From an uncultured Butyrivibrio sp. (GTDB taxonomy: Bacteria > Bacillota > Clostridia > Lachnospirales > Lachnospiraceae): 13,664 nucleotides of DNA. The stretch spans positions 1-13,664 of the forward strand of contig CAMVRW010000035.1 in assembly GCA_947169985.1 (NCBI GenBank), given 5' to 3'. Below the pieces are notes generated by a model. That model had not been told where the DNA came from. It made no database searches and saw only the letters and a list, made by a program, of their open reading frames with translations. The translations under genes were made by a program, and so were the position numbers. Positions 1,825 through 13,664 of the stretch are shown here, in pieces. Positions within the stretch are counted from its first letter, which is position 1; each line of letters begins with the position of its first letter.

Positions 1825-3147
1825 ATGGAAAATGAAGAGAATAAGCAGACGGGTGAGGAGCAAAAGGCCGAAAACAAAAATCCCATCTACTACATAATTG
1901 AGCATATGCCCGAACTGGACCTTTGGGGGAGAGTTCGGGTTCTTTTCAGATGGCTGTTTCTGGGAGGCATAACAGGTGCTATTGTTGGAGCAATTGGTGC
2001 AGCCTTTTCCAAAGCCATTCTTTTTGCCACCCAGTTCAGGACTGAGCATGACCTGATCATTCTGGGACTTCCCGTGGCGGGACTTGTGATTGTTGCCATG
2101 TACAGGGCATGTAAGGACTACGAGGACAAGGGCACGAACCTGGTCATCAAGTCCATTCAGGAGGGAGAGAATCTTCCCATTACAAAAGCTCCGCTGATCT
2201 TCATTTCTACTACCATAACTCATCTTTTCGGCGGATCCACAGGCCGTGAGAGCGCTGCCCTTCAGATGGGCGGAAGCATCGGCTTTAACCTTGGAAAGCT
2301 CTTCAGACTCAAAGAAGGAAACGTAAAGATCATTACCATGTGTGGCATGAGCGCTGCGTTCTCCGCTCTTTTTGGAACGCCCATGACGGCTTCGTTTATG
2401 GCCATGGAAATAGAGAATGTTGGAGTAATGTACTACTCAGCCCTGGTTCCCTGCGTAGTTTCAGCGCTTGTGGCAAAGGGTATCAGTTCTAGTCTTGGAG
2501 CTGTAGGGGAACAGTTTGTTGTCAATGTTATTCCTGTTTTTAATCCCTATAATGCAGTGTTCACCGGGGTTCTGGCTATTCTTTGTGCGATACTGAGTGT
2601 TATTTTTTGCGATGTCCTTAAATTCTCCGGAAAAACCTATAAAAAGCTTCTGCCCAATCCTTATATAAGAGTGTTTGTTGGCGGATGTATCGTTGTGGCG
2701 CTGACATATATGTCAGGAACAAGGTATTACAATGGTGCCGGAATGAACGTTATTGAGATGGCACTTCGCGGCGAAGCTCCATATTACGCCTTCCTTTTGA
2801 AGATTATCTTTACAGCTCTGACTTTGGGTGCAGGTTACAAGGGCGGTGAAATTGTGCCAGCTCTTTACATTGGAGCAACCTTCGGGTGTCTGTACTCCCA
2901 GCTTTTGGGATTTGAGCCGGCCCTTTGCGCTGCTATCGGAATGGGAGCATTGTTCTGTGGAGTAACCAACTGTCCAATTTCCTCGCTGTTCATATGCTTT
3001 GAGCTGTTTGGCTTCAAGGGAATGCCATATTACCTTCTGGCAATTGCCCTTAGCTACACTTTCTCAGGGTATAGTAGCCTGTACAGCAGCCAGAAGATCA
3101 TGTATTCCAAGTTCCACAACAAGTACATCAACAGGGAGACAAAGTGA
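1825..3147 (+). CDS. CLC-family anion channel/transporter, resembling the CLC-F (fluoride/proton) branch
   Basis: A 440-residue polytopic membrane protein with around ten hydrophobic segments and a charged N-terminal 30 residues. CLC landmarks are present: GRES at 140-143 with the gating glutamate E142 (usual form GREGP), GMSAAFSALFGTP at 174-186, and GGEIVP at 340-345 where ordinary chloride CLCs have GGIFAP. The usual GSGIP loop is replaced by TNLVIKSI (104-111). E342 in GGEIVP, together with the missing second glutamate after the FMAME motif (I196), is the pattern I associate with the fluoride-exporting CLC-F branch, in which a glutamate at this site relays protons. The threonine usual two residues later in that branch is V344 here. 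No fluoride riboswitch is seen in the 36-base gap upstream. GGGGG at 1814-1818 is the likely ribosome site. Family assignment is firm; ion specificity is inference. Confidence 0.88.
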   Translation: MENEENKQTGEEQKAENKNPIYYIIEHMPELDLWGRVRVLFRWLFLGGITGAIVGAIGAAFSKAILFATQFRTEHDLIILGLPVAGLVIVAMYRACKDYEDKGTNLVIKSIQEGENLPITKAPLIFISTTITHLFGGSTGRESAALQMGGSIGFNLGKLFRLKEGNVKIITMCGMSAAFSALFGTPMTASFMAMEIENVGVMYYSALVPCVVSALVAKGISSSLGAVGEQFVVNVIPVFNPYNAVFTGVLAILCAILSVIFCDVLKFSGKTYKKLLPNPYIRVFVGGCIVVALTYMSGTRYYNGAGMNVIEMALRGEAPYYAFLLKIIFTALTLGAGYKGGEIVPALYIGATFGCLYSQLLGFEPALCAAIGMGALFCGVTNCPISSLFICFELFGFKGMPYYLLAIALSYTFSGYSSLYSSQKIMYSKFHNKYINRETK

Positions 3148-3557
3148 AGAAGTATCGTGAAGCGCTTACGGCAGTTCTTGCCATTGCGCTTATCTACATA
3201 GTTTTCTATATAGTGGGGGTGGGATGTCCTATAAAGTTCCTTACGGGCATATCCTGCGCAGGCTGTGGCATGACAAGGGCGTATCTGTCTCTTTTGCGCC
3301 TTGATGTGGCAGCGGCCTTTCATTATCATCCCCTTTTCCCACTTCCACCGCTGGTTCTTCTATTAGTTCTTTTCAGGAAAAGAGTTCCCGACAAAATTTA
3401 TAAGCTGCTGCTGTTTACAATAACAGGCGTATTTCTTATAATATACCTGTTGCGGCTTTTTGACGCGACGGACACGGTAGTTGTTTTTGAACCCACCAGG
3501 GGTTTTATCTATCGGATATTTGAATTTTTAGGGAGGATACTTAAAAATGTTTTGTAG
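3144..3557 (+). CDS. DUF2752 family membrane protein
   Basis: A 137-residue membrane protein with hydrophobic segments at about 8-27, 64-78 and 88-105. The motif CPIKFLTGISCAGCGMTRA (28-46), with C28, C38 and C41, is the DUF2752 signature (a cysteine, then C-x-GCGMTRA). It is followed by LSLLRLDVAAAFHYHPL, where the family usually has an LLRGD-x-AF-x-NPL stretch. The start is GTG and overlaps the CLC stop by four bases (GTGA), with AGGGAG at 3132-3137 as the ribosome site, which implies translational coupling. Its own 3' end overlaps the next gene by 11 bases. The function of the family is not established. The conserved cysteines suggest metal or thiol chemistry near the membrane, but nothing here proves it. 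Confidence 0.82.
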   Translation: MKKYREALTAVLAIALIYIVFYIVGVGCPIKFLTGISCAGCGMTRAYLSLLRLDVAAAFHYHPLFPLPPLVLLLVLFRKRVPDKIYKLLLFTITGVFLIIYLLRLFDATDTVVVFEPTRGFIYRIFEFLGRILKNVL

Positions 3558-4203
3558 TAATTGTGGGGCACAGATTGGTGAAGGGGAGAAGTTCTGTGCT
3601 AACTGTGGAGCACCTGTTGGTGATGGACAAGAAATTAAGAAATTTGTGGTGCCTGAAGAGGGCATTCCACAGGGCGAATCAAGCGGATTTAACCAGAATG
3701 CAGGAAACGCTGCAAATGGTGCATATGAACAGGGAATAGGAAATGGTGCAGGAAGCGGAGCAAATTCCGGAAACTTCACCTATGCAGGCCCAATGGGAAT
3801 GATCCCTCGTAAGACAGACAGGAGCTTTTGGCTGTACCTGCTTCTTACATGGGTAACATGTGGAATTTATAATCTGATCTTCATGTATGAGGTCATCAGG
3901 GATGTGAACATTGCCTGCGAAGGCGACGGAGAGGAAACTCAGGGGCTCTTGGTTCTGATTCTTCTTTCCATAGTAACATGTGGTATCTATACCTTTATTT
4001 GGTATTACAAGCTGGGGAACAGGCTTTCAAAGAACTGCAAGAGATATGGCTACAATGTATCTGAGGACGGAGTCACAGTTCTTTTATGGATGATCTTAAG
4101 TTCATGGCTTTGCGGAATCGGAACCTATGTGGCTAAGTACATCATCATCTCACAGACAAACATGGTCTGCACAGGCTACAACAGGGCTAACGGACTAGCC
4201 TGA
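3547..4203 (+). CDS. Zinc-ribbon plus DUF4234 membrane protein
   Basis: A 218-residue protein in three parts. Residues 1-24 are a zinc ribbon of the type MFCSNCGAQIGEGEKFCANC, with the four ligands C3, C6, C17 and C20. Residues 25-88 are a Gly/Asn/Ala-rich, probably disordered linker. Residues 89-210 are a DUF4234 domain with three hydrophobic segments. The domain contains an internal near-repeat, WVTCGIYNLIFMYEV (102-116) and IVTCGIYTFIWYYKL (142-156). The ATG lies inside the 3' end of the DUF2752 gene and has GGGAGG at 3531-3536, so the pair is translationally coupled. Function is unknown. Cytoplasmic zinc ribbons on small membrane proteins often mediate protein contacts, which is inference here. 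Confidence 0.85.
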   Translation: MFCSNCGAQIGEGEKFCANCGAPVGDGQEIKKFVVPEEGIPQGESSGFNQNAGNAANGAYEQGIGNGAGSGANSGNFTYAGPMGMIPRKTDRSFWLYLLLTWVTCGIYNLIFMYEVIRDVNIACEGDGEETQGLLVLILLSIVTCGIYTFIWYYKLGNRLSKNCKRYGYNVSEDGVTVLLWMILSSWLCGIGTYVAKYIIISQTNMVCTGYNRANGLA

Positions 4204-4243
4204 CAGGACAAAACACCCTCTGAAAAATAATTTCTAAAAAAAT

Positions 4244-4266
4244 ATCAAATTTTATTAAATTTTGAT
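4244..4266. promoter_or_regulatory. 23-nt near-perfect palindrome, candidate operator
   Basis: The 23 bases read nearly the same on both strands: arms ATCAAA and TTTGAT, then one T/T mismatch, then four further pairs around a central T at 4255, giving ten of eleven matching pairs. It contains almost no G or C, so it would make a poor RNA hairpin. It ends eight bases before the extended -10 at 4275-4283 and covers the place of its -35 box. That is the layout of a repressor or activator site for the small gene at 4356. No regulator can be named. Confidence 0.4.
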
Positions 4267-4274
4267 AAACTTTG

Positions 4275-4283
4275 TGCTATTAT
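4275..4283 (+). promoter_or_regulatory. Extended -10 promoter for the 4356 gene
   Basis: TGC followed by TATTAT (4278-4283) makes an extended -10 element. A -35 at the right distance (TTAAAT, 4255-4260, 17-base spacing) is weak and lies within the 4244-4266 palindrome, as expected for an extended -10 or activator-dependent promoter. Transcription would begin near 4290, leaving a leader of about 65 bases. Confidence 0.42.
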
Positions 4284-4355
4284 GGTGTGGAGGGGTATTT
4301 CAAAACCTTCGGAATTTCAATCAAATGTTTGACAAAAGAGAAAGGAGCACCTGTT

Positions 4356-4628
4356 ATGTCAAGCCAGTTGCGCTATTCTCCGTTTAAGCCAAATTTGAAG
4401 ACAGCCGAAGTATTTGCATGGGGCGATCCGGAGTACAATTTGTTTGACCAGCTCAATGAGAAATATGAGCAGAAACACCCAGAATTCTGCCATTTGTCCA
4501 CATATGAGAAGATGGTCATCAGGCAACAGATTCATCATGAAGCCATAGGGCTGACACCACTAAATCTTATAATGGATTTTGTCGAAGATCCGCAATTCGA
4601 TGAGTTCAGAGCAGTGGAAAATCTGTAA
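4356..4628 (+). CDS. Small hypothetical protein, 90 residues
   Basis: I do not recognise this protein. It is soluble, with no signal peptide or membrane segment, and slightly acidic, beginning MSSQLRYSPFKPNLKTAEV. The N-terminal third is extended and the rest looks helical. It ends DFVEDPQFDEFRAVENL. The ATG at 4356 is chosen because AAAGGAG stands at 4341-4347 with an eight-base spacer. The frame is open further upstream to a TTG at 4272, but that codon lies across the promoter. It is a single-gene unit: promoter upstream, stem-loops at 4646-4704 downstream, then a separate promoter for the next gene. Confidence 0.72.
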   Translation: MSSQLRYSPFKPNLKTAEVFAWGDPEYNLFDQLNEKYEQKHPEFCHLSTYEKMVIRQQIHHEAIGLTPLNLIMDFVEDPQFDEFRAVENL

Positions 4629-4661
4629 AAATTAATAGAATACTATTGCTGCCAAGCAACT

Positions 4662-4704
4662 GAAACGCCATGGTTTTTTCCTTAGGGAAGGCCCATGGCG
4701 CTTC
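4662..4704 (+). terminator. Long hairpin after the 4356 gene, terminator-like but without a T tract
   Basis: Outer arms GAAACGCCATGG (4662-4673) and CCATGGCGCTTC (4693-4704) pair over 12 positions with a single A/C mismatch. The inside continues with TTTTCC against GGAAGG around a TTAG loop (4682-4685). A small second hairpin (TTGCT/AGCAA, 4646-4659) precedes it. The stem is followed by TATTGCATTAATA rather than a run of T, so it is an imperfect intrinsic terminator. It could instead block 3' exonucleases or insulate the promoter that starts three bases later. Confidence 0.5.
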
Positions 4705-4706
4705 TA

Positions 4707-4735
4707 TTGCATTAATAATTTATGCTTGTTACAAT
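4707..4735 (+). promoter_or_regulatory. Promoter of the 4761 membrane-protein gene
   Basis: TTGCAT (4707-4712), a 17-base spacer and TACAAT (4730-4735), preceded by TGT, form a good sigma-A promoter with an extended -10. Transcription would start near 4742, just ahead of the GAGGGGG ribosome site at 4746-4752. The promoter overlaps an upstream in-frame ATG at 4722, which therefore cannot be the start codon. Confidence 0.62.
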
Positions 4736-4760
4736 TAATTGCATAGAGGGGGTTCATTTC

Positions 4761-5285
4761 ATGCTTAATCTTATGTATGTGGGGATTGCTTTTTCACTGG
4801 TGTTTTACGTGGTGTTTGGTGTGGCTATCCGCTTCATGGAGCTGACCGATAAGACCAGGAATAATGCAAGACTTCTGATTCTTGTAACTTCCATGATGAT
4901 TTTTGCAATATCAGGTGCTATTGCCGGAGTCCTTAATCTCAAACTTGGTCTTTACGTTCTCGGCATTTTTTTGATTGTGCTTTCTCTCGTGGCGATTCTC
5001 TTCGTGCTTTCCATACTGGTTGAACTTCATCAGATTAAATTCAGAGTGCGCATGCGCAGGTTCATGGTTCTTTTCGACGTGGTGGACAAGTTCCGCACTG
5101 AGGGCAAGAGCCACGAGGAGATCATGTCTTACCTTACAAATATTCAGAAGCTTTCATTTAAGGAAGCATCTGATTTTATGGAGTTCATTTCCGACCCTAC
5201 CAACTACCAGTTTTTGGCTGATGTAAACGCTAAGATTCAGGAGGCTAAGGTGCTTAATAAGGCCGAGACAGATTATTTCAGGTGA
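4761..5285 (+). CDS. Hypothetical membrane protein with three N-terminal helices
   Basis: A 174-residue protein I cannot assign to a family. Three hydrophobic segments at about 3-23, 34-56 and 58-82 place the N-terminal half in the membrane. The segment RVRMRRFMVLFDVVDKF is strongly positive, which suggests that the roughly 90-residue C-terminal tail lies in the cytoplasm. The tail is helical and charged (TEGKSHEEIMSYLTNIQ, then FKEASDFMEFISDP). The ATG at 4761 is chosen over the one at 4722 because GAGGGGG at 4746-4752 is correctly spaced from it and because the promoter -10 lies at 4730-4735. It is a single-gene unit closed by the terminator at 5334-5368. Confidence 0.75.
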   Translation: MLNLMYVGIAFSLVFYVVFGVAIRFMELTDKTRNNARLLILVTSMMIFAISGAIAGVLNLKLGLYVLGIFLIVLSLVAILFVLSILVELHQIKFRVRMRRFMVLFDVVDKFRTEGKSHEEIMSYLTNIQKLSFKEASDFMEFISDPTNYQFLADVNAKIQEAKVLNKAETDYFR

Positions 5286-5333
5286 TATTTCTTTTGCCGG
5301 GGCGTGAGCCCTATAATATGAAAAGAGCTTATG

Positions 5334-5368
5334 GTGGCTCCCAGGATTATCCCTGGGGTCACTTTTTT
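5334..5368 (+). terminator. Intrinsic terminator between the membrane-protein gene and livJ
   Basis: GTGGCTCCCAGG (5334-5345) pairs with CCTGGGGTCAC (5352-5362) with one bulged T and one G-T pair. The loop is ATTATC and TTTTTT (5363-5368) follows. It is the clearest hairpin-plus-T-run in the window and separates livJ from upstream transcription. A small GGGC-GTGA-GCCC hairpin lies at 5300-5311. Confidence 0.8.
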
Positions 5369-5379
5369 GCTTTAAAGTA

Positions 5380-5429
5380 TTGACTTTTTAAAATAATTAT
5401 TTTAACTTAGGATATAACATTGTATACAA
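5380..5429 (+). promoter_or_regulatory. livJ promoter region with two palindromic candidate operators
   Basis: TTGACT (5380-5385) is a good -35. The -10 is uncertain: TAACTT (5403-5408) has the right 17-base spacing, while the better-looking TATAAC (5413-5418) is too far away. Two perfect palindromes are present. TTAAAATAATTATTTTAA (5388-5405) fills the -35/-10 spacer, and TTGTATACAA (5420-5429) lies where the transcript would begin. The second resembles sites of some GntR-family repressors. The first does not match the CodY consensus. The placement suggests repression of the binding-protein gene, perhaps by amino-acid supply, which is inference. Confidence 0.5.
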
Positions 5430-5458
5430 ATATACATTTGATTGAGGAGGATTTGTTT

Positions 5459-6631
5459 ATGAAGAAGTTTAACAAAGTAGTTAGTACTGTTATGGCTTCT
5501 GCTCTGGCAATGGCAATGCTCGCAGGATGCGGCGATGGAGCTGCTCAGTCTGCCGGATCAGGAAGCGGATCATTCAAGATCGGAGCTATCGGACCTCTTA
5601 CAGGCGCAGCTGCTGCATACGGAAACGCAGTTGTTAACGGCGCTCAGATCGCTGTAGACGAGATCAACGCTGCAGGCGGAATCAATGGTTATCAGATAGA
5701 GTACAAGGGCGAGGATGACGAGCTCAACGCAGAGAAGTCAGTTAACGCTTATAACAGCCTTAAGGACTGGGGAATGCAGGTTCTTGTTGGATCAACAACT
5801 TCTGCTTGCTCAATCGCAGTTTCAGAGAATACAAAGGCTGACAACATGTTCCAGCTTACACCTTCAGGATCTGCTGAGGACTGCGTAAAGTATGACAACG
5901 TATTCCGTGTTTGCTTCTCAGATCCTAACCAGGGTATTGCTTCAGCTCAGTACATCAGCGATCACAACCTTGCTACAAAGGTTGGTATCATCTATGACAA
6001 CTCAGATGTTTATTCTTCAGGTATCTACCAGAAGTTCGTTGAGGAGTCAGCAGGCAAGAACTACGAAGTAGTTTCAGCTGAGGCTTACACACAGGACAAC
6101 AACACAGATTTCTCAGTTCAGCTCCAGAAGGCTAAGGACGCAGGCGCTGATCTTGTATTCCTTCCTATTTATTATTCAGATGCAGCTCTGATCCTTACAC
6201 AGGCTAACACAATGGGTTATGCACCTACATTCTTCGGTGTAGATGGTATGGACGGAATCCTTACAGTTGAGAACTTCGACACATCACTGGCTGAGGGACT
6301 TATGCTTCTTACTCCTTTCGCAGCTGATGCTACAGATGATCTTACAGTTAACTTCGTTAAGAAGTACAAAGAGAAGTACGGCGAGACTCCTAACCAGTTC
6401 GCAGCTGATGCTTACGATGCAGTATTCATCATCAAGGCAGCTATGGAGAAGGCGAACGTAACACCTGACATGAGCGTTTCTGATATCTGCGATGCAGTTA
6501 AGGGTGCTATGGTTCAGATCGAGGCTTCAGGTCTTACATCAGCTAAGATGACATGGGCAGCTTCTGGTGAGCCTAACAAGGAACCTAAGGCTGTTGTTAT
6601 CAAGGGCGGCGTATACGTTTCTGCTGAGTAG
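5459..6631 (+). CDS. livJ: Branched-chain amino-acid ABC transporter, substrate-binding lipoprotein
   Basis: A 390-residue periplasmic-binding-type protein (type 1 fold, LivJ/Leu-Ile-Val-binding family). Residues 1-24 are a lipoprotein signal ending in the lipobox LAGC, with C24 lipid-anchored to the outer face of the membrane. A Ser/Gly linker follows, then FKIGAIGPLTGAAAAYG (about 39-55), typical of the family, NGAQIAVDEINAAGGINGY, and VGSTTSACSIAVSEN in the ligand cleft. The start at 5459 has GAGGAGG at 5444-5450; the frame extends upstream to a TTG at 5420 that overlaps the palindrome and has no ribosome site. The gene uses a narrow set of codons (lysine almost always AAG, many GCA, ACA and TCA), unlike its neighbours, as expected for a very abundant protein. 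The exact ligand (leucine, isoleucine, valine or another amino acid) cannot be read from sequence. Confidence 0.93.
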   Translation: MKKFNKVVSTVMASALAMAMLAGCGDGAAQSAGSGSGSFKIGAIGPLTGAAAAYGNAVVNGAQIAVDEINAAGGINGYQIEYKGEDDELNAEKSVNAYNSLKDWGMQVLVGSTTSACSIAVSENTKADNMFQLTPSGSAEDCVKYDNVFRVCFSDPNQGIASAQYISDHNLATKVGIIYDNSDVYSSGIYQKFVEESAGKNYEVVSAEAYTQDNNTDFSVQLQKAKDAGADLVFLPIYYSDAALILTQANTMGYAPTFFGVDGMDGILTVENFDTSLAEGLMLLTPFAADATDDLTVNFVKKYKEKYGETPNQFAADAYDAVFIIKAAMEKANVTPDMSVSDICDAVKGAMVQIEASGLTSAKMTWAASGEPNKEPKAVVIKGGVYVSAE

Positions 6632-6632
6632 A

Positions 6633-6663
6633 GCACTTGGTGAGGTCCTTTCGAACCTAGTGC
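6633..6663 (+). repeat. 31-nt structured hairpin repeat, copy 1
   Basis: It starts one base after the livJ stop codon. Stem GCACTTGG/CCTAGTGC with a T-T mismatch at the sixth pair, closed by a T-A pair, and a 13-nt loop GAGGTCCTTTCGA. The same architecture returns at 6677-6707 and 9604-9634 with five stem pairs changed. CGAAC follows, as in copy 3. Confidence 0.75.
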
Positions 6664-6676
6664 GAACCATGGGCGG

Positions 6677-6707
6677 ACACTTAACGAGGTTTTGTCGAGT
6701 TTAGTGT
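6677..6707 (+). repeat. 31-nt structured hairpin repeat, copy 2
   Basis: Thirteen bases after copy 1, in the same orientation. Stem ACACTTAA/TTTAGTGT with the same T-T mismatch, closed by C-G, and loop GAGGTTTTGTCGA. Relative to copy 1, the first, seventh, eighth and ninth stem pairs differ on both sides, and pairing is kept each time. Confidence 0.75.
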
Positions 6708-6729
6708 AGCGACCAAGAGTGAGCGCTAC
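6706..6729 (+). repeat. Hairpin following repeat copy 2
   Basis: GTAGCG (6706-6711) and CGCTAC (6724-6729) pair perfectly around a 12-nt purine-rich loop. It shares its first two bases with the end of copy 2, so the two stems compete slightly. A comparable extra hairpin follows copy 3. No T run follows. Confidence 0.5.
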
Positions 6730-6764
6730 TTTACATTAAGAATTATAATATGGATTAACTTCAG

Positions 6765-6796
6765 CAAGGGATGCTGTCACAGGCCTCCCTTGTTTT
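6765..6796 (+). terminator. Intrinsic terminator between livJ and livH
   Basis: CAAGGGA (6765-6771) pairs with TCCCTTG (6786-6792) over seven bases around a 14-nt loop that can form a small CTG/CAG inner stem. TTTTACATTT follows. It would end or attenuate the livJ transcript, keeping the permease genes at a lower level than the binding protein. Confidence 0.62.
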
Positions 6797-6806
6797 ACAT
6801 TTAGAA

Positions 6807-6835
6807 TTGAGCGTTACAGTTTAAAATGATAAAAT
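6807..6835 (+). promoter_or_regulatory. Promoter of livHMGF
   Basis: TTGAGC (6807-6812), a 17-base spacer and TAAAAT (6830-6835), preceded by TGA, give a good promoter with an extended -10. The start would be near 6842. GATAAA (6828-6833) and TTTATC (6846-6851) form a short inverted repeat across the -10 and start site, a weak operator candidate. Confidence 0.58.
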
Positions 6836-6877
6836 ATATCAAGTGTTTATCTTATTAGTAGGGAGGAGTTTTGTGGG

Positions 6878-7762
6878 ATGAGTTTTCTTACCTATCTCAT
6901 TAACGGATTAAGTTTAGGGAGTATATATGCCATAATCGCTCTTGGATACACCATGGTTTACGGTATTGCCAAGATGCTGAACTTCGCTCATGGCGATTTC
7001 ATCATGGTGGGCTGCTACATTATCTTTTCAGTGAGCGCAGCCATGTCAGGTAATTCTGTGGTGGGCATCATTGTGGCGATCATACTGTGTACGCTTCTTG
7101 GCGTAACAACTGAGTTCGTGGCCTACAGGCCTCTTCGCGGAGCAGCTTCACCTCTGGCGGTTCTGATCACAGCTATCGGTGTGAGCTACCTTCTTGAAAA
7201 CATCGCGCTTCTTATCTACGGCGCAGATATCAAGTCATTTTCATCAGTAATTTCATGGGAAGGCCTCTCTTTTGCAGATGGCCAGCTGAAGATCCAGGGC
7301 GTAACCATTATTACAATCCTTGTGAGCGTGGTTATCCTTATTGCTTTGCAGCTGTTCATCAACAAGACCAAGCAGGGACAGGCCATGCTGGCAGCTTCTG
7401 AGGACAAGGGCGCAGCTACTTTAATGGGTATTAACGTCAACAGGACAATTGCTCTGACATTTGCAATTGGTTCTGCTTTGGCGGCCATTGCGGGAGCGCT
7501 TCTTTGCTCAGCTTATCCTTCCCTTTCTCCATACACCGGCGCAATGCCCGGAATCAAGGCCTTCGTTGCAGCGGTTCTTGGCGGTATCGGATCTATCCCC
7601 GGAGCAATGATTGGCGGGCTGGTGCTGGGCATAGTAGAGATTCTCTCAAAGACCTACATTTCATCACAGCTTTCCGATGCGATTGTATTTGGAATCCTGG
7701 TTGTGGTGCTGCTGGTTAAGCCGACCGGAATATTGGGTAAAGTAATACAAGAAAAAGTTTAA
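6878..7762 (+). CDS. livH: Branched-chain amino-acid ABC transporter permease LivH
   Basis: A 294-residue integral membrane permease of the BPD_transp_2 family, with about eight hydrophobic segments. Family marks: ALGYTMVYGIAKMLNFAHGD (21-40), YRPLRG (83-88), the cytoplasmic loop AASEDKGAATLMGINV (172-187) that contacts an ATPase subunit, and GIKAFVAAVLGGIGSIPGA (225-243). It pairs with LivM to form the transmembrane channel. GGGAGG at 6861-6866 precedes the ATG by 11 bases, slightly long but the best start. livM begins 19 bases after the stop, and the gene is first in the livHMGF transcript. Confidence 0.94.
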   Translation: MSFLTYLINGLSLGSIYAIIALGYTMVYGIAKMLNFAHGDFIMVGCYIIFSVSAAMSGNSVVGIIVAIILCTLLGVTTEFVAYRPLRGAASPLAVLITAIGVSYLLENIALLIYGADIKSFSSVISWEGLSFADGQLKIQGVTIITILVSVVILIALQLFINKTKQGQAMLAASEDKGAATLMGINVNRTIALTFAIGSALAAIAGALLCSAYPSLSPYTGAMPGIKAFVAAVLGGIGSIPGAMIGGLVLGIVEILSKTYISSQLSDAIVFGILVVVLLVKPTGILGKVIQEKV

Positions 7763-7781
7763 GGCGAAAGGTGATAAACAT

Positions 7782-8837
7782 ATGAACAAGACGACAAAAT
7801 CAAATCTCATAACATATGGCATTGTCATCGGAGCCTACATCATCGTTGAGATCCTGATGCTGACCGGCAATCTTTCAAGCCATCTTAAAGGTCTTTTGGT
7901 CCCAATGACATATTATGCGGTAATTGCAGTAGCCCTGAACCTGTGCGTAGGAATTCTGGGGGAGCTCAGTATCGGACATTGCGGATTTATGTGCATCGGA
8001 GCATTCTCCAGCGCCTTCTTTTCAAGGGCAACAGAGAACGCAATCCCTACTGTGCCAAGATTCATACTGGCTTTCATTATTGGAATCGCTTTTGCAGCGC
8101 TCTTTGGCTTCCTTATTGGAATTCCGGTACTTCGTCTTAAGGGTGACTACCTGGCGATCGTTACACTGGCTTTTGGTGAGATCATCAAAAACGTCATCAA
8201 TGCACTGTACATCGGCATCGACGGCAAGGGCTTCCACTTTACAATGAAGAGTTCCATGGACCTTGGAATGGAGCCTGACGGCGACATTATCGTAAACGGA
8301 GCTATGGGAATCACCGGAACACCGCATAATTCGAGCTTTACGGTAGGCATTATAGTGCTGCTGATAGCTCTTTTCATCGTTCAGAATCTCGTAAATTCCA
8401 GGGACGGCCGTGCGATCATGGCTATCCGTGACAATTATATCGCCGCAGAGTCAACAGGCATCAACGTTACAAGCTACAAGATGATGGCGTTTACCATTTC
8501 TGCAGCAATTGCAGGGGCGGCAGGAGTTCTTTTCTCTCACAATATCACTACGTTGACGGCTTCATCACAGTACTTCGGGTTCAATGCGTCAATCATGATC
8601 CTGGTTTACGTGGTGCTGGGCGGAATCGGAAATATCAGGGGAAGCGTTATTGCAGCATGCATCCTGTACCTGCTTCCTGAGCTGCTTCGCGGCTTCAACA
8701 CCTACAGAATGTTGATCTATTCAATTGTTCTCATCGTGATGATGATCGTGAACTGGTCGCCGAAGGTTATCGAGTGGCGTAAAAAGACCTTTGGGCGCAT
8801 TAATCTTCCCTGGCGCAGGGCAAAGGAGGTGGCTTAA
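7782..8837 (+). CDS. livM: Branched-chain amino-acid ABC transporter permease LivM
   Basis: A 351-residue membrane permease of the same family as LivH, with about nine hydrophobic segments. Visible marks are NLCVGILGELSIGHCGFM (53-70), LRLKGDYLAIVTLAFGEI (117-134), the cytoplasmic ATPase-contact loop SRDGRAIMAIRDNYIAAES (206-224) and LGGIGNIRGSV (279-289). The C-terminal 25 residues are basic and probably cytoplasmic. It is the second half of the channel dimer. AAAGGTG at 7767-7773 is the ribosome site. The stop TAA is followed directly by the livG ATG, and the livG ribosome site lies inside the last codons of livM, so the two are translationally coupled. Confidence 0.94.
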   Translation: MNKTTKSNLITYGIVIGAYIIVEILMLTGNLSSHLKGLLVPMTYYAVIAVALNLCVGILGELSIGHCGFMCIGAFSSAFFSRATENAIPTVPRFILAFIIGIAFAALFGFLIGIPVLRLKGDYLAIVTLAFGEIIKNVINALYIGIDGKGFHFTMKSSMDLGMEPDGDIIVNGAMGITGTPHNSSFTVGIIVLLIALFIVQNLVNSRDGRAIMAIRDNYIAAESTGINVTSYKMMAFTISAAIAGAAGVLFSHNITTLTASSQYFGFNASIMILVYVVLGGIGNIRGSVIAACILYLLPELLRGFNTYRMLIYSIVLIVMMIVNWSPKVIEWRKKTFGRINLPWRRAKEVA

Positions 8838-9596
8838 ATGGCACTTCTGGATGTAAATAACTTAAGCATTTCTTTCGGTGGCCTTAGGGCTGTTGATAAT
8901 TTCAATATTACTATCGAGAAGGGCGAGCTTTACGGGCTTATCGGACCTAACGGCGCCGGAAAGACCACAGTTTTCAACCTTCTGACAGGTGTGTACAAGC
9001 CAAACGAAGGAATCATCAGGCTTGATGGCGAGGACATCACCCGCAAGAACACCATTGAGATCAACCATGCAGGTATCGCAAGGACTTTCCAGAACATCAG
9101 GCTTTTCAAGAACATGCCTGTTATCGACAACGTTAAGGTTGGACTTTCCGAGCGCTTTAAGTACAGTGCCCTGGAGGGAATGCTGCATATTGGCAAGTAC
9201 AGCAAGGTTGAGAAAGAGATGGATGCAGAGGCCATGCGGCTTTTGAAGGTCTTTGATCTGGACGGGGAGAGGGATACCCTGGCGGCAAATCTTCCTTATG
9301 GTAAGCAGCGTAAGCTGGAGATTGCCCGTGCCATGGCCACAAATCCTAAGCTCCTTCTTCTGGATGAGCCCGCAGCTGGCATGAATCCTAATGAGACAAA
9401 AGAGCTGATGGACACAATTGCGCTTGTTCGCAGGGAATTCGACATGACGATCCTTCTGATTGAGCATGACATGAAGCTGGTTTCAGGTATCTGCGAAAAG
9501 CTGACAGTGCTGAATTTCGGACGTGTCTTGTGTCAGGGCGAGACCAAGGAAGTGCTGGCTAATCCGGAGGTTATTACGGCTTATCTTGGAGAGTAG
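8838..9596 (+). CDS. livG: Branched-chain amino-acid ABC transporter ATP-binding protein LivG
   Basis: A 252-residue cytoplasmic ABC ATPase. Walker A is GPNGAGKTT (36-44), the Q-loop is TFQN with Q85, the signature is LPYGKQ (152-157, the LivG-type variant of LSGGQ), Walker B is LLLLDEP (172-178) and the H-loop is H210 in LLIEHDM. The C-terminal GEVL-like stretch ETKEVLANPEVITAYLGE is typical. It forms a heterodimer with LivF and drives LivHM. AAAGGAGGTGG (8822-8832) is a very strong ribosome site within the end of livM. The 116 bases after its stop hold hairpin repeat copy 3 before livF. Confidence 0.95.
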   Translation: MALLDVNNLSISFGGLRAVDNFNITIEKGELYGLIGPNGAGKTTVFNLLTGVYKPNEGIIRLDGEDITRKNTIEINHAGIARTFQNIRLFKNMPVIDNVKVGLSERFKYSALEGMLHIGKYSKVEKEMDAEAMRLLKVFDLDGERDTLAANLPYGKQRKLEIARAMATNPKLLLLDEPAAGMNPNETKELMDTIALVRREFDMTILLIEHDMKLVSGICEKLTVLNFGRVLCQGETKEVLANPEVITAYLGE

Positions 9597-9603
9597 GCTG
9601 TGA

Positions 9604-9634
9604 GGACTTGCTGAGGTTCTTTCGAAGCTAGTCC
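9604..9634 (+). repeat. 31-nt structured hairpin repeat, copy 3
   Basis: It lies seven bases after the livG stop. Stem GGACTTGC/GCTAGTCC with the same T-T mismatch, closed by T-A, and loop GAGGTTCTTTCGA. Relative to copy 1, pair 2 changes from C-G to G-C and pair 8 from G-C to C-G, with pairing kept. CGAAC follows as in copy 1. Confidence 0.75.
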
Positions 9635-9640
9635 GAACGT

Positions 9641-9681
9641 GTTCTGGCGAGCGCTTTTTGCGAGAGCAGAACTTCCTTTTT
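9641..9681 (+). repeat. Hairpin following repeat copy 3, with T-rich tail
   Basis: GTTCTG (9641-9646) pairs with CAGAAC (9667-9672). An inner CGC/GCG stem with a TTTTT loop lies at 9652-9662, and purine-rich sides (GCGAG, AGAG) could form stacked G-A pairs. TTCCTTTTT follows at 9673-9681, so partial termination between livG and livF is possible. It is the counterpart of the hairpin at 6706-6729. Confidence 0.5.
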
Positions 9682-9712
9682 GCTATGCTGATTATAAATG
9701 CGAGGTATATAT

Positions 9713-10429
9713 ATGGCTGATTCAATTTTGACGGTCAAAGATTTAAGTGTATATTATGGCGTAATCCAGGCCCTCAAGGGTATCTCTTTTCACGTAGACA
9801 AGGGCGAGATCGTGGCCCTCATCGGTGCCAACGGGGCTGGAAAAACCACAACCCTTCATACTTTGTCGGGGCTCATAAATGCTGACAAGGGCGAGATTGA
9901 TTATAAGGGCTTTGACCTGACCAAGATTCCGGGCCACAAGATTGTAAGCTTTGGAATGGCGCAGGTTCCTGAGGGAAGACGAGTTTTTGCGGAGATGACA
10001 GTTCTGCAGAATCTGAAGATGGGAGCTTTCACCAGAAAGGACAAAGCTGAGATGGAAGGCACTTTGCAGACCATCTACAAGAGATTCCCAAGGCTTGAAG
10101 AGCGTAAGAACCAGTTGGCAGGAACACTTTCAGGCGGTGAGCAGCAGATGCTTGCCATGGGAAGGGCGCTGATGTCCCATCCGGACCTGATCCTTATGGA
10201 CGAGCCATCCATGGGACTTTCACCGATCTTTGTTAACGAGATCTTCAGCATCATTGAGGATGTAAATAAGGATGGTGTGACAGTCCTTTTAGTAGAGCAG
10301 AACGCAAAGAAGGCTCTTTCTATCGCAAACAGGGCGTACGTCCTTGAGACAGGCTCAATTATCAAGGAAGGCGATGCAAAAGAATTGCTTAATGACGAGG
10401 ATATTAAGAAGGCATATTTAGGAGAGTGA
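9713..10429 (+). CDS. livF: Branched-chain amino-acid ABC transporter ATP-binding protein LivF
   Basis: A 238-residue cytoplasmic ABC ATPase. Walker A is GANGAGKTT (38-46), the signature is LSGGEQQ (139-145), Walker B is LILMDEP (159-165), and the H-loop histidine is replaced by glutamine in LLVEQNA (192-198), which is normal for LivF. The sequence ending IKKAYLGE is also typical. The ATG at 9713 is preferred over an in-frame ATG at 9698 because GAGGT at 9702-9706 is correctly placed for 9713 only. It partners LivG beneath LivHM. The kinase-like gene starts two bases after its stop, with its ribosome site inside the last livF codons. Confidence 0.95.
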   Translation: MADSILTVKDLSVYYGVIQALKGISFHVDKGEIVALIGANGAGKTTTLHTLSGLINADKGEIDYKGFDLTKIPGHKIVSFGMAQVPEGRRVFAEMTVLQNLKMGAFTRKDKAEMEGTLQTIYKRFPRLEERKNQLAGTLSGGEQQMLAMGRALMSHPDLILMDEPSMGLSPIFVNEIFSIIEDVNKDGVTVLLVEQNAKKALSIANRAYVLETGSIIKEGDAKELLNDEDIKKAYLGE

Positions 10430-10431
10430 AC

Positions 10432-11070
10432 ATGAAGCGCAACATTACAATTACGATTGCAAGGCAGTATGGTAGCGGCGGACGTACCGTTGGTGAGATG
10501 CTTGCCAATGATATAGGAGTTCATTACTACAACAACGAACTGATCAAGCTTGCTTCAGAGGAGAGCGGAATCAGTGAGTCTCTTTTCCTGGAGACTGATG
10601 AGAAGTGCAGAAACACCGGATTTTTCAAGAAGTCCATAGATGTTTATCAGGGCGGACTCATCGGTCCTGACAGCAAGGATTTTACTTCTGAGGCGAATCT
10701 TTTCAATTATCAGGCCAAGGTCATCAAAAAGCTTGCTGAGACCAGCAGCTGTGTTATTGTTGGCCGTGCAGCTGATTTTGTGCTGAAGGACTACAACAAT
10801 GTCCTTAGTGTCTTTGTTCATGCGCCCCATGACTTCCTTGTGGAGCAGGCAGCCAAGGTTAAGAGCCTTCCACACGATGAGCTGATCAAATTTATGGCCA
10901 AGGAAGACAAGTATCGCGCCGAGTACTACGAGCACCACACTGGCCAGAAGTGGACCGACGCCATGAACTACGATCTGTGCCTCGACAGCAGCAAGCTGGG
11001 CTTCGAGAAATGCGTTGAAGCCATCAAAGCTCATGCAAGAGTGAGGTTTGGTGAGGATATATTTGATTAA
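10432..11070 (+). CDS. Cytidylate-kinase-like family protein
   Basis: A 212-residue soluble protein of the cytidylate-kinase-like group. The N-terminus ITITIARQYGSGGRTVGEML (5-24) is the family's modified P-loop, in which the usual GKS/T becomes GGRT. CVIVGRAADFVL (107-118) is the second conserved stretch, and the C-terminus YDLCLDSSKLGFEKCVEAI (180-198) matches the family end. True CMP kinases phosphorylate CMP/dCMP with ATP; the substrate of this divergent group is not established, so the enzymatic call is tentative. AGGAGAG (10420-10426) supports the ATG at 10432; a GTG at 10426 is possible but falls within the ribosome site. It is last in the liv transcript and ends at the terminator 11080-11104. 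Confidence 0.85.
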   Translation: MKRNITITIARQYGSGGRTVGEMLANDIGVHYYNNELIKLASEESGISESLFLETDEKCRNTGFFKKSIDVYQGGLIGPDSKDFTSEANLFNYQAKVIKKLAETSSCVIVGRAADFVLKDYNNVLSVFVHAPHDFLVEQAAKVKSLPHDELIKFMAKEDKYRAEYYEHHTGQKWTDAMNYDLCLDSSKLGFEKCVEAIKAHARVRFGEDIFD

Positions 11071-11079
11071 AGAATGAAG

Positions 11080-11104
11080 AAGAGCGCCCCTCAGGAGCGC
11101 TCTT
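11080..11104. terminator. Bidirectional intrinsic terminator between convergent units
   Basis: AAGAGCGC (11080-11087) pairs perfectly with GCGCTCTT (11097-11104), with a CC/GG inner stem and TCA loop. On the + strand the stem ends in TTTT; on the - strand it continues CTTCTTCATTCTTT. It closes the liv-kinase unit and also lies over the last codons and stop of the - strand acyltransferase gene, whose stop codon (11091-11093) forms the hairpin loop. Confidence 0.75.
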
Positions 11105-11819
11105 TTAAATGTTCATCAATTTTTTTCTTAATTCTCTGCTCGACCATAAGAGCAATATCCACTGTCTTCATTCCCTTGTAGTCATCATAATAGATGGGAT
11201 CAAGGTAGTAGATATATGTTGTGACAGGGCCCTTATGGGGACTGTTGTAGACTTTATAGGAATCAATCAGTGCCACGGGAACGATGGGGCACTTGGACAT
11301 CTGCGCCAGCTTAAAGCTTCCTGCCTTAAAAGGCTCAACAATATTCCGATTATCCTCCTTGTAGCCACCTTCCGGGAAGAGGATGAATTTCCTGCCTTCT
11401 TCCGTTATCTCTTTTGCCATTTCCTTGAAAATTGAAAGGGTCTGACGAAGATTGTCCATCATCAGGCGCTTGCCGCCAACCAAAAGAAGAAATTCATTCA
11501 CCAGGATAATGTGGGACTTTTTCTCATCCATAACAAAGGAACAGGGCTTGTCGTGGGCTGTGAAAATCCCGGGAACATCGTACTTGCCCTGGTGGTTGGG
11601 ATACATTACGTAGCCGCCCTCTTTTGGGAGCTTTTCCTGGCCGAAGGCGATGGTCTTGTAGCCTGAAGACTTGTTCATTTTCTCCACCATTTCCTGAGCC
11701 ATGGCGTAGCGCTCCTCCATGGAATGGCGCTCCGGGTGCCTCAGCCAAATGTGGGTCTTGGTGACGTAATATATGATCCTATGCAGGTTTTTTATAATTG
11801 TGCGGTAGTAATTTGTCAT
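11091..11819 (-). CDS. PlsC-like lysophospholipid acyltransferase
   Basis: A 242-residue acyltransferase of the PlsC/LPLAT superfamily. The catalytic H-x4-D motif is PNHQGKYD (74-81, H76 and D81) and the substrate-binding motif is FPEGG (148-152, usual form FPEGTR). KAGSFKLAQMSKCPIVPVAL (166-185) is the conserved stretch after it. Family role: transfer of a fatty acyl group to lysophosphatidic acid or a related lysolipid at the inner membrane face. There is only a weak hydrophobic N-terminal segment. No strong ribosome site stands before the ATG (GAAAGA at about 11832 is the best), so translation may depend on the exonuclease gene 24 bases upstream. The last codons lie within the bidirectional terminator. 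The exact acyl acceptor is not known. Confidence 0.88.
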   Translation of the reverse strand: MTNYYRTIIKNLHRIIYYVTKTHIWLRHPERHSMEERYAMAQEMVEKMNKSSGYKTIAFGQEKLPKEGGYVMYPNHQGKYDVPGIFTAHDKPCSFVMDEKKSHIILVNEFLLLVGGKRLMMDNLRQTLSIFKEMAKEITEEGRKFILFPEGGYKEDNRNIVEPFKAGSFKLAQMSKCPIVPVALIDSYKVYNSPHKGPVTTYIYYLDPIYYDDYKGMKTVDIALMVEQRIKKKIDEHLKERS

Positions 11820-11843
11820 TAAAAGAAATCTTTCTAATTATTT

Positions 11844-12884
11844 TCAAAGCTTCTCCATCAGGGACTTGAAGCCGTATTTCTCAAACTGCTCTTTTGCCTT
11901 GTTCTTGTCAAAATTCAGCTTAAAATCGTCAAGAGCCTGAGGGATGGGGTAATCCTTGCGGATCTGAGCTAGCTCTTTTGACAAAAGAGCCATATCCCTA
12001 TATTCAACCAGAGCCTTCATGGGGCTTCGGGAGATCCCCAGGTCCTCTTTCCAGCTTGTGGCAAGGGCCTTCAGCTCTTTATCTCCGTTGCAGCCGTCAA
12101 TCGCTTCATAGATGCCCTCAACGGTGCGGTACTTAGCAAGGAGCGGGATGGCAGCGCTGCTAACGCCCTTAACTCCCGGGATGTTGTCACTGGCATCACC
12201 CTGAATTCCCTTAAGATCAGGAATCTGGCAGGGCTCAACGCCGTACTCCTTAAGGCAAAGGCTCGGCGAAACCTCAAAAGCCTTGTCCGGAATGCTGGTC
12301 ATTTTCCTGTTCCAGCCAAACTCTGCGCCATACTTGGTCTGAAGCTCGTCCGCCGTCTCCTGTTTAGTCTGCACCAACCAAACCCTGGTATAATCGCTCA
12401 CAAGCTGCAGATAATCATGGTCCTTGGTGATGATAAAAGAGGGAATCTCTTTTTCAAACTTGCTGACCACGCTGCCCACAATGTCGTCTGCCTCGAAGTG
12501 GTCGTCGTACATCACCGCAAAACCAAGGGCCTTTAGCATTTCCTCCATGTTCTGGAACTGCTCCTTCAGCGGCTCAGGCGTATCGCCTCGATTGCCCTTG
12601 TAATCCGCATACTTCTCACGCCTGAAGGTGTCTCTGGTGGTGTCGAAGGCGAACATCATGTGAGTGGGCTGCTGTTCTGCCATGATTTTCAAAATAGTCC
12701 GCATCATGCCGTACATGGCGTTAGTGTACTGGCCCTTGTCATTATGCATGATCTGGGAAAAGAGCTTTTCCTTCTTCTCCGGGTCTTTTTCAAAAAGCAG
12801 CGCCTTGGGCAGGTTTCCATAATAATTGGTCACCAGCATTGAGCTGCCATCTATAAGGATGAATTTTCCTTGATTATTGGTCAT
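11844..12884 (-). CDS. Stand-alone 5'-3' exonuclease (Pol I N-terminal nuclease type)
   Basis: A 346-residue FEN-family nuclease with a PIN-like and a helix-3-turn-helix half but no polymerase domain. Metal ligands are visible in order: D12 in LIDGSS, D81 in FDTTRDTFRREKYADYKGNR, EADD at 131-134, TKDHD at 153-157 (usual form TGDKD), and DLKGIQGDASDNIPGVKG (223-240) with D230 and D233. Known role: removal of 5' flaps and RNA primers during lagging-strand synthesis and repair. It is longer than the usual 290 or so residues, mainly through residues 24-50 and about 186-215. GAGG (12896-12893, - strand) is the ribosome site. A separate polymerase I would still be expected elsewhere in the genome. 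Confidence 0.9.
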   Translation of the reverse strand: MTNNQGKFILIDGSSMLVTNYYGNLPKALLFEKDPEKKEKLFSQIMHNDKGQYTNAMYGMMRTILKIMAEQQPTHMMFAFDTTRDTFRREKYADYKGNRGDTPEPLKEQFQNMEEMLKALGFAVMYDDHFEADDIVGSVVSKFEKEIPSFIITKDHDYLQLVSDYTRVWLVQTKQETADELQTKYGAEFGWNRKMTSIPDKAFEVSPSLCLKEYGVEPCQIPDLKGIQGDASDNIPGVKGVSSAAIPLLAKYRTVEGIYEAIDGCNGDKELKALATSWKEDLGISRSPMKALVEYRDMALLSKELAQIRKDYPIPQALDDFKLNFDKNKAKEQFEKYGFKSLMEKL

Positions 12885-12920
12885 TTGCCAGGCCTCGTGT
12901 TTTTGTATTCTTTCTTCAAT

Positions 12921-12950
12921 ATTATATATTTTTCAGGACTATATGCGCAA
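12921..12950 (-). promoter_or_regulatory. Promoter of the exonuclease-acyltransferase unit
   Basis: Read on the - strand, TTGCGC (12950-12945), an 18-base spacer and TATAAT (12926-12921). A perfect -10 about 35 bases before the ATG makes this the best candidate. It overlaps the opposite-facing promoter of the 13007 gene. Confidence 0.5.
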
Positions 12951-12959
12951 CATTTAGTG

Positions 12960-12965
12960 TATAAT
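12960..12965 (+). promoter_or_regulatory. -10 box of the 13007 gene
   Basis: A perfect TATAAT at 12960-12965 with no convincing -35 (GGACTA at 12936-12941). TATAA-TTG-TTATA (12960-12972) is also a small palindrome. The gap 12885-13006 is thus a divergent promoter region. Confidence 0.42.
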
Positions 12966-13006
12966 TGTTATAAAGATATCTATGACCACAAATTGTAGGG
13001 GTGTAT

Positions 13007-13664
13007 ATGGGGTTCGACATTTCGAAGCTGACAAATGCTGTCAACAAGTACCTTAATTCAATATCAGATGTTACTTCTGCAGCTAAGCGTGCTTCTCAGG
13101 AGATTGAGGATCGTACCCGTTTTGCCAGTGAACTTGGGGATGCCATCAAGCAGAACATGACCAGTCGCCTTCGAGATGATGCGACAACCGAGATTCCTGA
13201 CATCTCCGCTCAGATTCAGAATGAGATCAAGCAGGTCACAAGCGGTTTTGATGCCACTATCGAGCAGATCAATGGGGCCTTTGAGTCAATTCGGGAGTCT
13301 GGCGGAGTTTCGGGCAGCAAGTCAGGAAGCAACACAGAGTCAGAATCTTCTTCAAATTCTGCTAATGGCTTGGAAAGTATGGCAAGTGCATACCAAGCAG
13401 CTTCTGCTGCCAACTCAACATATGGCGCATCATCTGCAACCGCTGCAAGTTCCAGCACATATTCTGCCCTGAATGCACTTTCATCCGGAAACCGCGACGC
13501 ATACTCTGGTCTGCTTAGCACCGAAGCGCTACAGGAGCTTTCCAAGTCCCAGTACTTTTCATCAAACCTGCTTCAAAGCTCACTTTTTGACGTACTTGAT
13601 GAGAGCGATGAAAAGAGCTCTTCCGGAAGCTCAGCTTTTGATTCTTTGTCACTTTCAGATCTTA
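13007..13664 (+). CDS. Hypothetical Ser/Ala-rich protein, 3' end outside window
   Basis: An open frame of 219 codons runs from ATG 13007 to the window edge without a stop. AGGGG at 12997-13001 is a suitable ribosome site and TATAAT lies 42 bases upstream. Residues 1-100 (starting MGFDISKLTNAVNKYLNSIS) are polar and helical, with possible coiled-coil character. Residues 100-165 are a low-complexity Ser/Ala/Asn linker, and about 170 onward is again helical (LQELSKSQYFSSNLLQSSLF) before another Ser-rich stretch. No signal peptide or membrane segment is seen. I do not recognise the family. The layout, a helical head and disordered linker before something off the edge, would fit a cell-wall enzyme or surface-associated protein, but that is only a guess. 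Confidence 0.72.
   Translation, partial: MGFDISKLTNAVNKYLNSISDVTSAAKRASQEIEDRTRFASELGDAIKQNMTSRLRDDATTEIPDISAQIQNEIKQVTSGFDATIEQINGAFESIRESGGVSGSKSGSNTESESSSNSANGLESMASAYQAASAANSTYGASSATAASSSTYSALNALSSGNRDAYSGLLSTEALQELSKSQYFSSNLLQSSLFDVLDESDEKSSSGSSAFDSLSLSDL

Follow-up and report, generated by a model that had tools for sequence, protein, structure and literature searches.

The locus examined here raises the question of why one liv gene cluster should carry three copies of the same 31-nt hairpin. It lies in a contig of an uncultured Butyrivibrio sp. of the Lachnospiraceae (GenBank assembly GCA_947169985.1, contig CAMVRW010000035.1, positions 1 to 13,664 of the forward strand), and this whole stretch of 13,664 nucleotides is called the window below. 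An earlier note, made from the letters of the window alone, had described the hairpins and had suggested an RNA processing or stability site, a protein-binding site, or a dispersed repeat resembling the repetitive extragenic palindromic (REP) sequences. Our analysis indicated that the hairpins belong to two members of a two-hairpin repeat family of about 90-110 bp, apparently not previously described, whose copies seem, from comparison of related genomes, to be or recently to have been mobile. Small structured repeats shape operons, and we know of few for which the fold, the target rule and the distribution have all been established.

The three 31-nt copies were confirmed on the + strand, like the liv genes: GCACTTGGT-GAGGTCCTTTCGA-ACCTAGTGC at 6633-6663, ACACTTAAC-GAGGTTTTGTCGA-GTTTAGTGT at 6677-6707 and GGACTTGCT-GAGGTTCTTTCGA-AGCTAGTCC at 9604-9634 (5' arm, loop and 3' arm as written). 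As had been described, each stem has eight standard pairs and a T.T mismatch at pair 6, pairs 3-5 are invariant, and pairs 1, 2, 7, 8 and 9 change with the pairing kept; RNA folding of each 31-mer returned the same fold, including the inner G-C and G-U pairs. The folding energies of the single 31-mers were unremarkable (z = -2.00, -1.25 and -2.17), and hairpin 2 was missing from the minimum-energy fold of the 104-nt stretch 6629-6732 of this one sequence. The loop motif alone was not significant in the window (8 matches with 2 mismatches allowed, against 9.3 expected), and across the source genome (2.53 Mb assembled, 66.85% complete) it gave 20 exact matches against 12 for a reversed-pattern control. 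The evidence lies in the stems and their arrangement, not in the loop motif. Exact loop matches were paired exactly 44 nt apart at five places in the source genome, the window included, and alignment of eight 44-nt pairs yielded one unit, YAGA-hairpin 1-GARCC-N8-hairpin 2. Because this pairing recurs elsewhere and the aligned pairs form one covarying unit, the first two window copies are the halves of one element of about 6626-6715, which we call type A and which consists of two near-identical direct hairpins. The third copy belongs to another form, type B (9597-9672), in which the same first hairpin is followed by GAACGT and a differing second one, a GCGAGC hairpin (GTTCTG GCGAGC..GCGAGAG CAGAAC); the outer pairs of this second hairpin vary in other type B copies with pairing kept, as judged by eye.

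The proposal that the fold is the conserved thing was borne out by pair counts. The eight founding copies of the tandem model had 98.1% of their cells paired and eight pairs altered on both sides, against 16.9-44.4% paired in slid controls. A script run over the loci in hand found 243 paired hairpins, 153 of them non-redundant; it demands most stem pairs and the T.T at pair 6, and hairpin pair counts are conditioned on both. Among these, 103 copies are canonical, passing a filter for GNGY[AG]GA (the Butyrivibrio-type left end) and a G[AT]RCC middle, which fixes two G-C pairs of the helix called P1 below and leaves N, N' and P2 unconstrained. The 50 copies outside the filter are from other genera with other P1 helices, or are mispairings inside arrays. 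The copies are phylogenetically non-independent. For the gap-free subset of 87 canonical copies, a 30-pair structure had 94.1% of 2610 cells paired and 19 pairs changed on both sides, and none of 500 shuffles reached either value; slid versions gave 21.7-42.2%. The count of further pair types was less telling, being reached by 42 of the 500 shuffles. RNAalifold, supplied with no structure, returned for the same copies hairpins 1 and 2, P1 including the N-N' pair, and four P2 pairs.

In P1 the left flank N-G-(W)-G-Y pairs with R-C-C-N' directly 3' of hairpin 1, with W bulged and an AGA/GA internal loop; in P2 the remaining middle strand pairs with the six bases that follow AG behind hairpin 2. 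P2 was weaker than P1, each of its six pairs being formed in 55 to 79 of the 87 copies, partly owing to a TGGG/CCCA subfamily with a shifted register. Both hairpins carry the U.U at pair 6 (a criterion of the script), tandem G.A pairs of the C-GA-G type and a G-C pair; the tip past the G.A pairs was longer or substituted at five loci (L074, L087, L117, L148 and L178). For a count of non-Watson-Crick stem cells, 308 distinct hairpins were chosen by their Watson-Crick pairs alone; the cells comprised G-T 38, A-C 10, A.A 37 and A.G 29. Since G-T exceeded A-C, it is probably the written strand that folds, whether as RNA or as single-stranded DNA; in the window the neighbouring genes lie on this strand. 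Other genera had different P1 sequences with the helix preserved, as judged by eye: TGCC/GGCA (L335), TAAAT/ATTTA (L193), GGTAT/ATACC (several of L343-L354) and TTGT/ACAA (L316).

The base N immediately outside GWG formed a Watson-Crick pair with N' in 103 of 103 canonical copies, the set on which this rule was counted (T-A 88, A-T 8, G-C 6, C-G 1), compared with a mean of 77.5 and a maximum of 86 in 5000 shuffles. The rule was one base deep. The next position outward paired in 23 of 103 copies (24.5 expected), and wider flank pairing was rejected as being at chance level. Where this could be checked, N was a host base. In livJ, livG and livF it closes the codon (GCT or GGT/GGA) that precedes the last Glu codon, and the element-free genome G029 likewise reads gctGAG at the livJ end. 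At the atpB end N closes the Glu codon itself, which is GAA in 20 and GAG in 5 of the 25 loci that could be read, and in sugar-permease genes it was either the T of TGA with N' = A (L079, L173, L176 and L182) or the A of TAG with N' = T (L085 and L134). Near-identical copies differed at N' in keeping with their sites, L085 and L179 being 4 of 83 positions apart and L154 and L176 being 6 apart. The sole canonical copy with N = C and N' = G was the element at L019 (2923-3006, -), which stands about five bases after a flavin mononucleotide (FMN) riboswitch aptamer (3012-3129, -). N' either selects the site, or is set upon insertion, or is adjusted later; no N-N' mismatch was seen, not even G-U, which speaks against slow adjustment. 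Among small structured mobile repeats this flank rule is the unusual part.

The type A copy of the window shows each of these parts on the + strand. Host base N is T6625, which ends the Ala codon GCT just ahead of the livJ GAG codon and pairs with N' at 6669. The left end GAG-T-AGA (6626-6632) supplies the 5' strand of P1 and then the AGA of the internal loop; the P1 pairs are G6626-C6668, G6628-C6667 and T6629-A6666, with A6627 bulged, and the livJ stop codon TAG (6629-6631) lies inside this left end. Hairpin 1 (6633-6663) is followed by the middle strand GAACCATGGGCGG (6664-6676), in which RCCN' (6666-6669) pairs with the left flank in P1 and 6670-6675 forms the 5' strand of P2. Hairpin 2 (6677-6707), delimited like hairpin 1 by sequence, folding and covariation, is followed by AG and the P2 3' strand CGACCA (6708-6715), with five of the six P2 pairs formed. 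At the right junction AGAG (6716-6719), GAG repeats the left GAG and is either the displaced host GAG or element-coded. The type B copy, also on the + strand, begins with the left end GCTGTGA (9597-9603) directly after the livG stop TAG (9594-9596), continues with hairpin 1 (9604-9634; sequence, folding and model match), and closes with GAACGT and the second hairpin GTTCTG-(GCGAGC...GCGAGAG)-CAGAAC (9635-9672; sequence and folding).

Several variants were seen elsewhere. At L132 and L180, in two contigs with the same layout, hairpin 1 is followed by GAGCCACACAGAG without hairpin 2, possibly a third form of the element. Two diverged relatives in the source genome (L032, 1501-1584, -; L038, 1501-1585, -) have a P2 3' strand that continues into TGTGGTATAAT, a -10-like box. 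In genomes G129 and G177, TGGTATAAT-like sequence stands on both sides of many copies (L343-L354). At L078, L083, L087, L096, L102, L150, L167, L181, L330 and other loci the element is embedded in a larger repeat; GGAAGATGGGACTT stands to the left and GAGTCCCCTTCCGC-like sequence to the right, and we take these flanks to be inverted pieces of a tRNA 3' half.

A covariance-model search, which the earlier note had proposed as a check, found further copies in the source genome, the genus and the family. The model covered tandem type A (84 positions), and matches were counted at E <= 0.001; searches over more than 40 genomes scored part of the candidates under stricter filters, and their counts are lower bounds. 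The source genome had 18 matches (best 5.6e-21), nine of them at 84 bits or more. Within the genus 66 of 79 genomes matched, with 0 to 43 matches each, and 40 of the 47 good genomes did so. Across the family 112 of 397 genomes and 101 of 334 genera matched, where some matches near E = 1e-4 may be due to chance; by our own count, the best E was 1e-8 or lower in 55 of the 397 genomes. Matches were also obtained in 22 of 344 genomes of an order sample and 8 of 391 of a class sample, and every matching genome belonged to the Lachnospiraceae. Genome-wide dispersal, one of the two distributions that had been envisaged, thus described the family, and restriction to liv gaps did not. A pattern fixing parts of hairpin 1 and GARCC drew at least 117 stretches; among the matches listed, the named contigs were mostly Butyrivibrio, and [Clostridium] aminophilum, Dorea sp. 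5-2, metagenome-assembled genomes of Hespellia and Enterocloster, and other Lachnospiraceae were also present. The earlier note had recognised no known family, and Rfam 15 gave no match in the window at the gathering threshold, none at E <= 10 for 6560-6900, and none on the element at 13 further loci, where only FMN and tRNA matches were returned. Our survey, confined to the open literature (subscription papers being outside its scope), met with no description of such an element in Butyrivibrio or the Lachnospiraceae. These results place one structured repeat family, whose fold lends itself to testing at single-base level, across a major gut and rumen family.

Orthologous sites differed in their content of the element. 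At the livJ stop, the 30 best LivH loci of the genus carried type A in 4, type B in 4, a remnant in 1 and no recognisable copy in 21; the end of livJ reads gctGAG-TAATTTC in G029 versus gctGAG-TAGAGC...CGACCAA-GAG-TAATC in G034. The livG-livF gap and the gap after livF held type A, type B, nested arrays (L262 and L270) and stubs such as GAGTAGAGCACTTGG. At L270 (the livG-livF gap of G028) and L262 (G047), types A and B and stubs are nested in one gap, as if the same site had been used repeatedly. The source genome and its near relative G027, with LivH 98% and AtpE 100% identical, differed at all four sites compared (livJ, livG-livF, post-livF and atpB-atpE). Among 30 atpB-atpE loci there were one full copy (source genome), one scar (G027, as read), 23 without the element and 5 that the script did not read. 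To the right of the source-genome copy, TAAC-AAAGGAGG has the appearance of the original stop and ribosome site pushed aside, and with GAG-TAG the atpB gene would end one residue later. Tandem units occurred at L060, L183, L316, L319 and L353. Since close relatives differ in whether a given orthologous site holds a copy, and since copies leave scars and build arrays, the element would seem to be, or recently to have been, mobile.

Allele comparison placed the left end of the element consistently and the right end approximately. Two candidate boundaries were discarded: a 6-bp target duplication GAAGAG at atpB, part of which belongs to hairpin 2, with the G027 allele better read as a scar, and a host origin of the P2 3' strand, hinted at by the same G027 allele and unsupported at livJ, since that strand is missing from the element-free allele there. 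A second GNGY[AG]GAGCA, as if the right end repeated the left junction, was found within 40 nt in 24 of 105 copies, with the same Y in 24 of 24 and the same W in 22 of 24, and is either a terminal repeat or the stub of an older copy.

The insertion sites showed a marked preference. Thirty-four of the 153 copies abut a coding end, where the stop is the element's own TAG in 20, TGA made from N and GA in 8, and another stop in 6. A terminator-like hairpin and T-run precede a further 49, a tRNA precedes 7, and a -10-like box precedes 10 (in other genera); 53 are at other sites, 12 of which look like array mispairings. Altogether, a terminator-like hairpin and T-run stood directly upstream in 51 of 153 copies. 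When the same test was applied downstream to the opposite strand at four offsets, it was passed by 0, 3, 5 and 4 of 152; within the same loci, 242 of 20000 positions drawn at random passed it, as did 207 of 9977 T-GWG positions. When the nearest open reading frame (ORF) within 400 nt was recorded for 142 distinct copies, it lay on the same strand in 89 and the opposite strand in 27 upstream, and in 90 and 24 downstream. Part of this sense bias arises because of the stop codon and the T-rich left flank (a T-run in 52 of 142 copies). Copies were found between atpB and atpE, between livJ and livH, between tRNA genes, after an FMN riboswitch, and between what we take to be rplJ-rplL, pgk-tpiA and rpsH-rplF from their sequences; the neighbour genes shared no common pathway or gene class. 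In genome G438, copies (L335 and L342) also lie at rRNA genes, directly after what is presumably a 23S rRNA gene 3' end and, in antisense orientation, shortly ahead of what we take for a 16S rRNA gene. The earlier note was thus right in part, and it had not seen the two-hairpin unit, the P1 and P2 helices, the orthologous presence and absence, the scars, the arrays, or the preference for stops, terminators and tRNA ends.

As for the remainder of the window, a terminator-like hairpin (AGCAAGGGATGCTGTCACAGG..CCCTTGTT, 6762-6795) occupies part of the livJ-livH gap. Most of the 30 LivH loci contain similar sequence, and the hairpin is likely a partial terminator within the liv operon. Pfam matches indicated a GGDEF-EAL protein (2-1423), a ClC channel (1825-3144), a cytidylate kinase-like protein after livF (10426-11067), a stand-alone 5'-3' exonuclease (11847-12884, -) and an acyltransferase (11094-11819, -).

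A gene-less element moved in trans is the simplest account of these observations, because of the copy number, the arrays, the scars and the presence and absence of copies. With a probability of roughly 0.6, we regard the repeats as a family of about 90-110-bp non-autonomous mobile elements that act as a folded strand. An enzyme supplied in trans would recognise the hairpins, with their U.U mismatch and tandem G.A pairs, on the folded single strand, and the same enzyme would join the left end to the target, the last target base being read by pairing through P1. The element's own TAG, or a TGA completed after T, might let it end an upstream gene harmlessly. A copy inside an operon would be transcribed and could fold in the mRNA, where any effect is supposed to be secondary. 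A more specific version, in which P1 between the element's interior and the host flank chooses or rewrites the join and thereby makes N' complementary to N, the enzyme is of a non-Y1 kind and acts on a folded strand of DNA or RNA, and this minimal gene-less element is adapted to harmless insertion at stops and terminators, is put forward tentatively and is, on balance, doubtful. Because a given site can be found filled, empty or scarred, both the mover and the targeting chemistry are directly searchable.

A number of points weigh against a mobile element of this kind. No neighbour gene family recurred as a partner among the leading 25 clusters, which comprised transporters, iorAB, tRNA-linked and ribosomal operons, and one 147-aa frame (10 loci); this frame was dismissed as spurious because it lies inside the composite repeat with inverted tRNA-like pieces. 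A Y1 transposase match was present in 60 of 79 congeners, and just 3 of 40 Y1 loci (30 of the best Y1 matches and 10 of the longer Y1 frames) had an element match, at about 2.9 kb (L310), 0.7 kb (L284) and 0.3 kb (L294). No element match was consistent across these 40 loci, with insertion sequence (IS) ends unmapped and other loci and genera not searched. Three genomes without a Y1 match were rich in copies, namely the source genome (18 element matches; 67% complete), G028 (19 element matches; 99% complete) and G070 (18 element matches; 100% complete). A single host base paired beyond the element end is little for a guide, and selection, templating and later adjustment of N' are all candidate origins of the rule. 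The scars equally fit plain deletion of old copies, a difference between species is no proof that copies move today, the allele comparisons leave the right end approximate, and 9 of 142 copies lie inside a script-called reading frame of at least 90 codons. The mover was not found by neighbour clusters or Y1 loci, a search that did not extend to group II reverse transcriptases and TnpB, and no autonomous form with an ORF between the hairpins was seen among the listed single-hairpin loci (L132 and L180 had no obvious ORF by eye).

The main alternative to a mobile element is a cis-acting RNA under selection. A protein or RNase would bind the twin hairpin and either protect or cleave the mRNA between cistrons, or adjust how strongly the neighbouring genes are expressed. 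The sense bias of the neighbours, the RNA-like motifs with G-T exceeding A-C, the occurrence in operons with unequal products (the atpB-atpE, rplJ-rplL, pgk-tpiA, rpsH-rplF and livJ-livH pairs mentioned above), and the same copy shared by several congeners at iorAB-type gaps would all suit such an RNA. However, a third of the copies directly follow a terminator-like hairpin, where the upstream mRNA would normally have ended, many orthologous gaps are empty, the neighbours have no common pathway, copies also lie between tRNA genes, and the sense bias is in part a product of the stop codon and T-rich flank. An RNA-processing or protein-binding site does not account for the insertion pattern, and we consider this explanation unlikely. 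The chance that the element is instead a riboswitch or ligand-binding tandem hairpin of the guanidine-II kind is negligible: two alike hairpins at near-fixed spacing, sometimes in leaders and once after an FMN riboswitch (L019), recall one, but the downstream genes form no consistent regulated set and share no pathway, and the length of the hairpin-2 loop tip varies at the five loci named above.

The remaining alternatives concern the mover. Group IIC introns also insert after terminators, and a retro-element mobilised in trans by a reverse transcriptase in their manner would fit the terminator-proximal sites, the flank base-pairing rule, the RNA-like motifs, and truncated copies that stay anchored at one end. 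The stubs retain the left end, not the RNA 3' end, there is no ribozyme-like core and no Rfam match in the window and 13 loci, and no reverse transcriptase was recognised among the leading neighbour clusters, no search having been aimed at them; such an origin is very improbable. A REP-type element moved by an HUH transposase of the Y1 type (TnpAREP, the REP-associated tyrosine transposase or RAYT, or an IS200-type enzyme) appears improbable too, to a slightly lesser degree. The Butyrivibrio left foot reads G-Y-A-G, A and then the hairpin, and GYAG is among the degenerate REP tags listed in PMC3733652. Some of the congeneric Y1 frames are 209-285 aa long, and the element match closest to a Y1 gene (L294) is a single hairpin. 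These longer frames, seen at L305-L314 with one or two per genome in many Butyrivibrio genomes, are RAYT-like in size and unlinked to the element. Against a REP origin, the foot is base-paired here and changed in other genera (TAAATAGA, GCATTGA and TATAATATGA), the hairpins are direct and not inverted, only 2 of 10 loci of 158-160-aa Y1 frames had a match, on different sides, and G028 and G070 are copy-rich without a Y1 match. The tag G-Y-A/G-G preceded hairpin 1 in the 103 canonical copies, where it is set by the filter and takes part in P1, and did not precede hairpin 2; several other genera lack it. The dimers of REP elements are mainly inverted (PMC3733652), but here the hairpins are direct both in the window and in the 84-position model, which most of the matches listed fit over its whole length, the script having sought same-strand pairs only; a flanking RAYT or Y1 gene was no regular companion in the 40 Y1 loci.

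Compared with known systems, the mobile element that we favour shares features with several. Guanidine-II riboswitches and ANTAR target RNAs likewise have two similar hairpins at near-fixed spacing, but their loops are unlike those of the element, which has no common regulated pathway and a patchy, mobile-like distribution. The Bcr1, BOX and NEMIS-type repeats resemble it in being intergenic, modular and about 100 nt long with a conserved RNA-like fold, and differ in sequence, fold and hosts; we know of no direct twin hairpins with a flank-pairing rule among them. REP sequences and REPINs (or bacterial interspersed mosaic elements, BIMEs) are likewise small dispersed extragenic palindromes, tens per genome, near gene 3' ends, with compensatory stem changes and a hypothesised mobilisation in trans, and the Butyrivibrio elements have a GYAG-like foot. 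The element differs from them in its direct hairpins, its U.U and tandem G.A pairs, its paired foot and the lack of any Y1 link found; the terms Firmicutes, Clostridi- and Lachnospir- are absent from the text of PMC3733652. The ends of IS200/IS605 elements (IS608 and ISDra2) and their derivatives also offer same-strand hairpins, insertion 3' of a short target, and pairing between flank and interior. According to PMC6006769, their guide tetranucleotide sits directly 5' of the hairpin foot. In the present element, by contrast, the pairing partner found lies 3' of hairpin 1, no transposase gene was found, and only one base outside the element is shown to matter. The element may work like an IS200/IS605-type element, which is not to say that it has been shown to be one. 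Should its insertion prove to be guided by pairing, a short list would be extended by a minimal guided mobile element.

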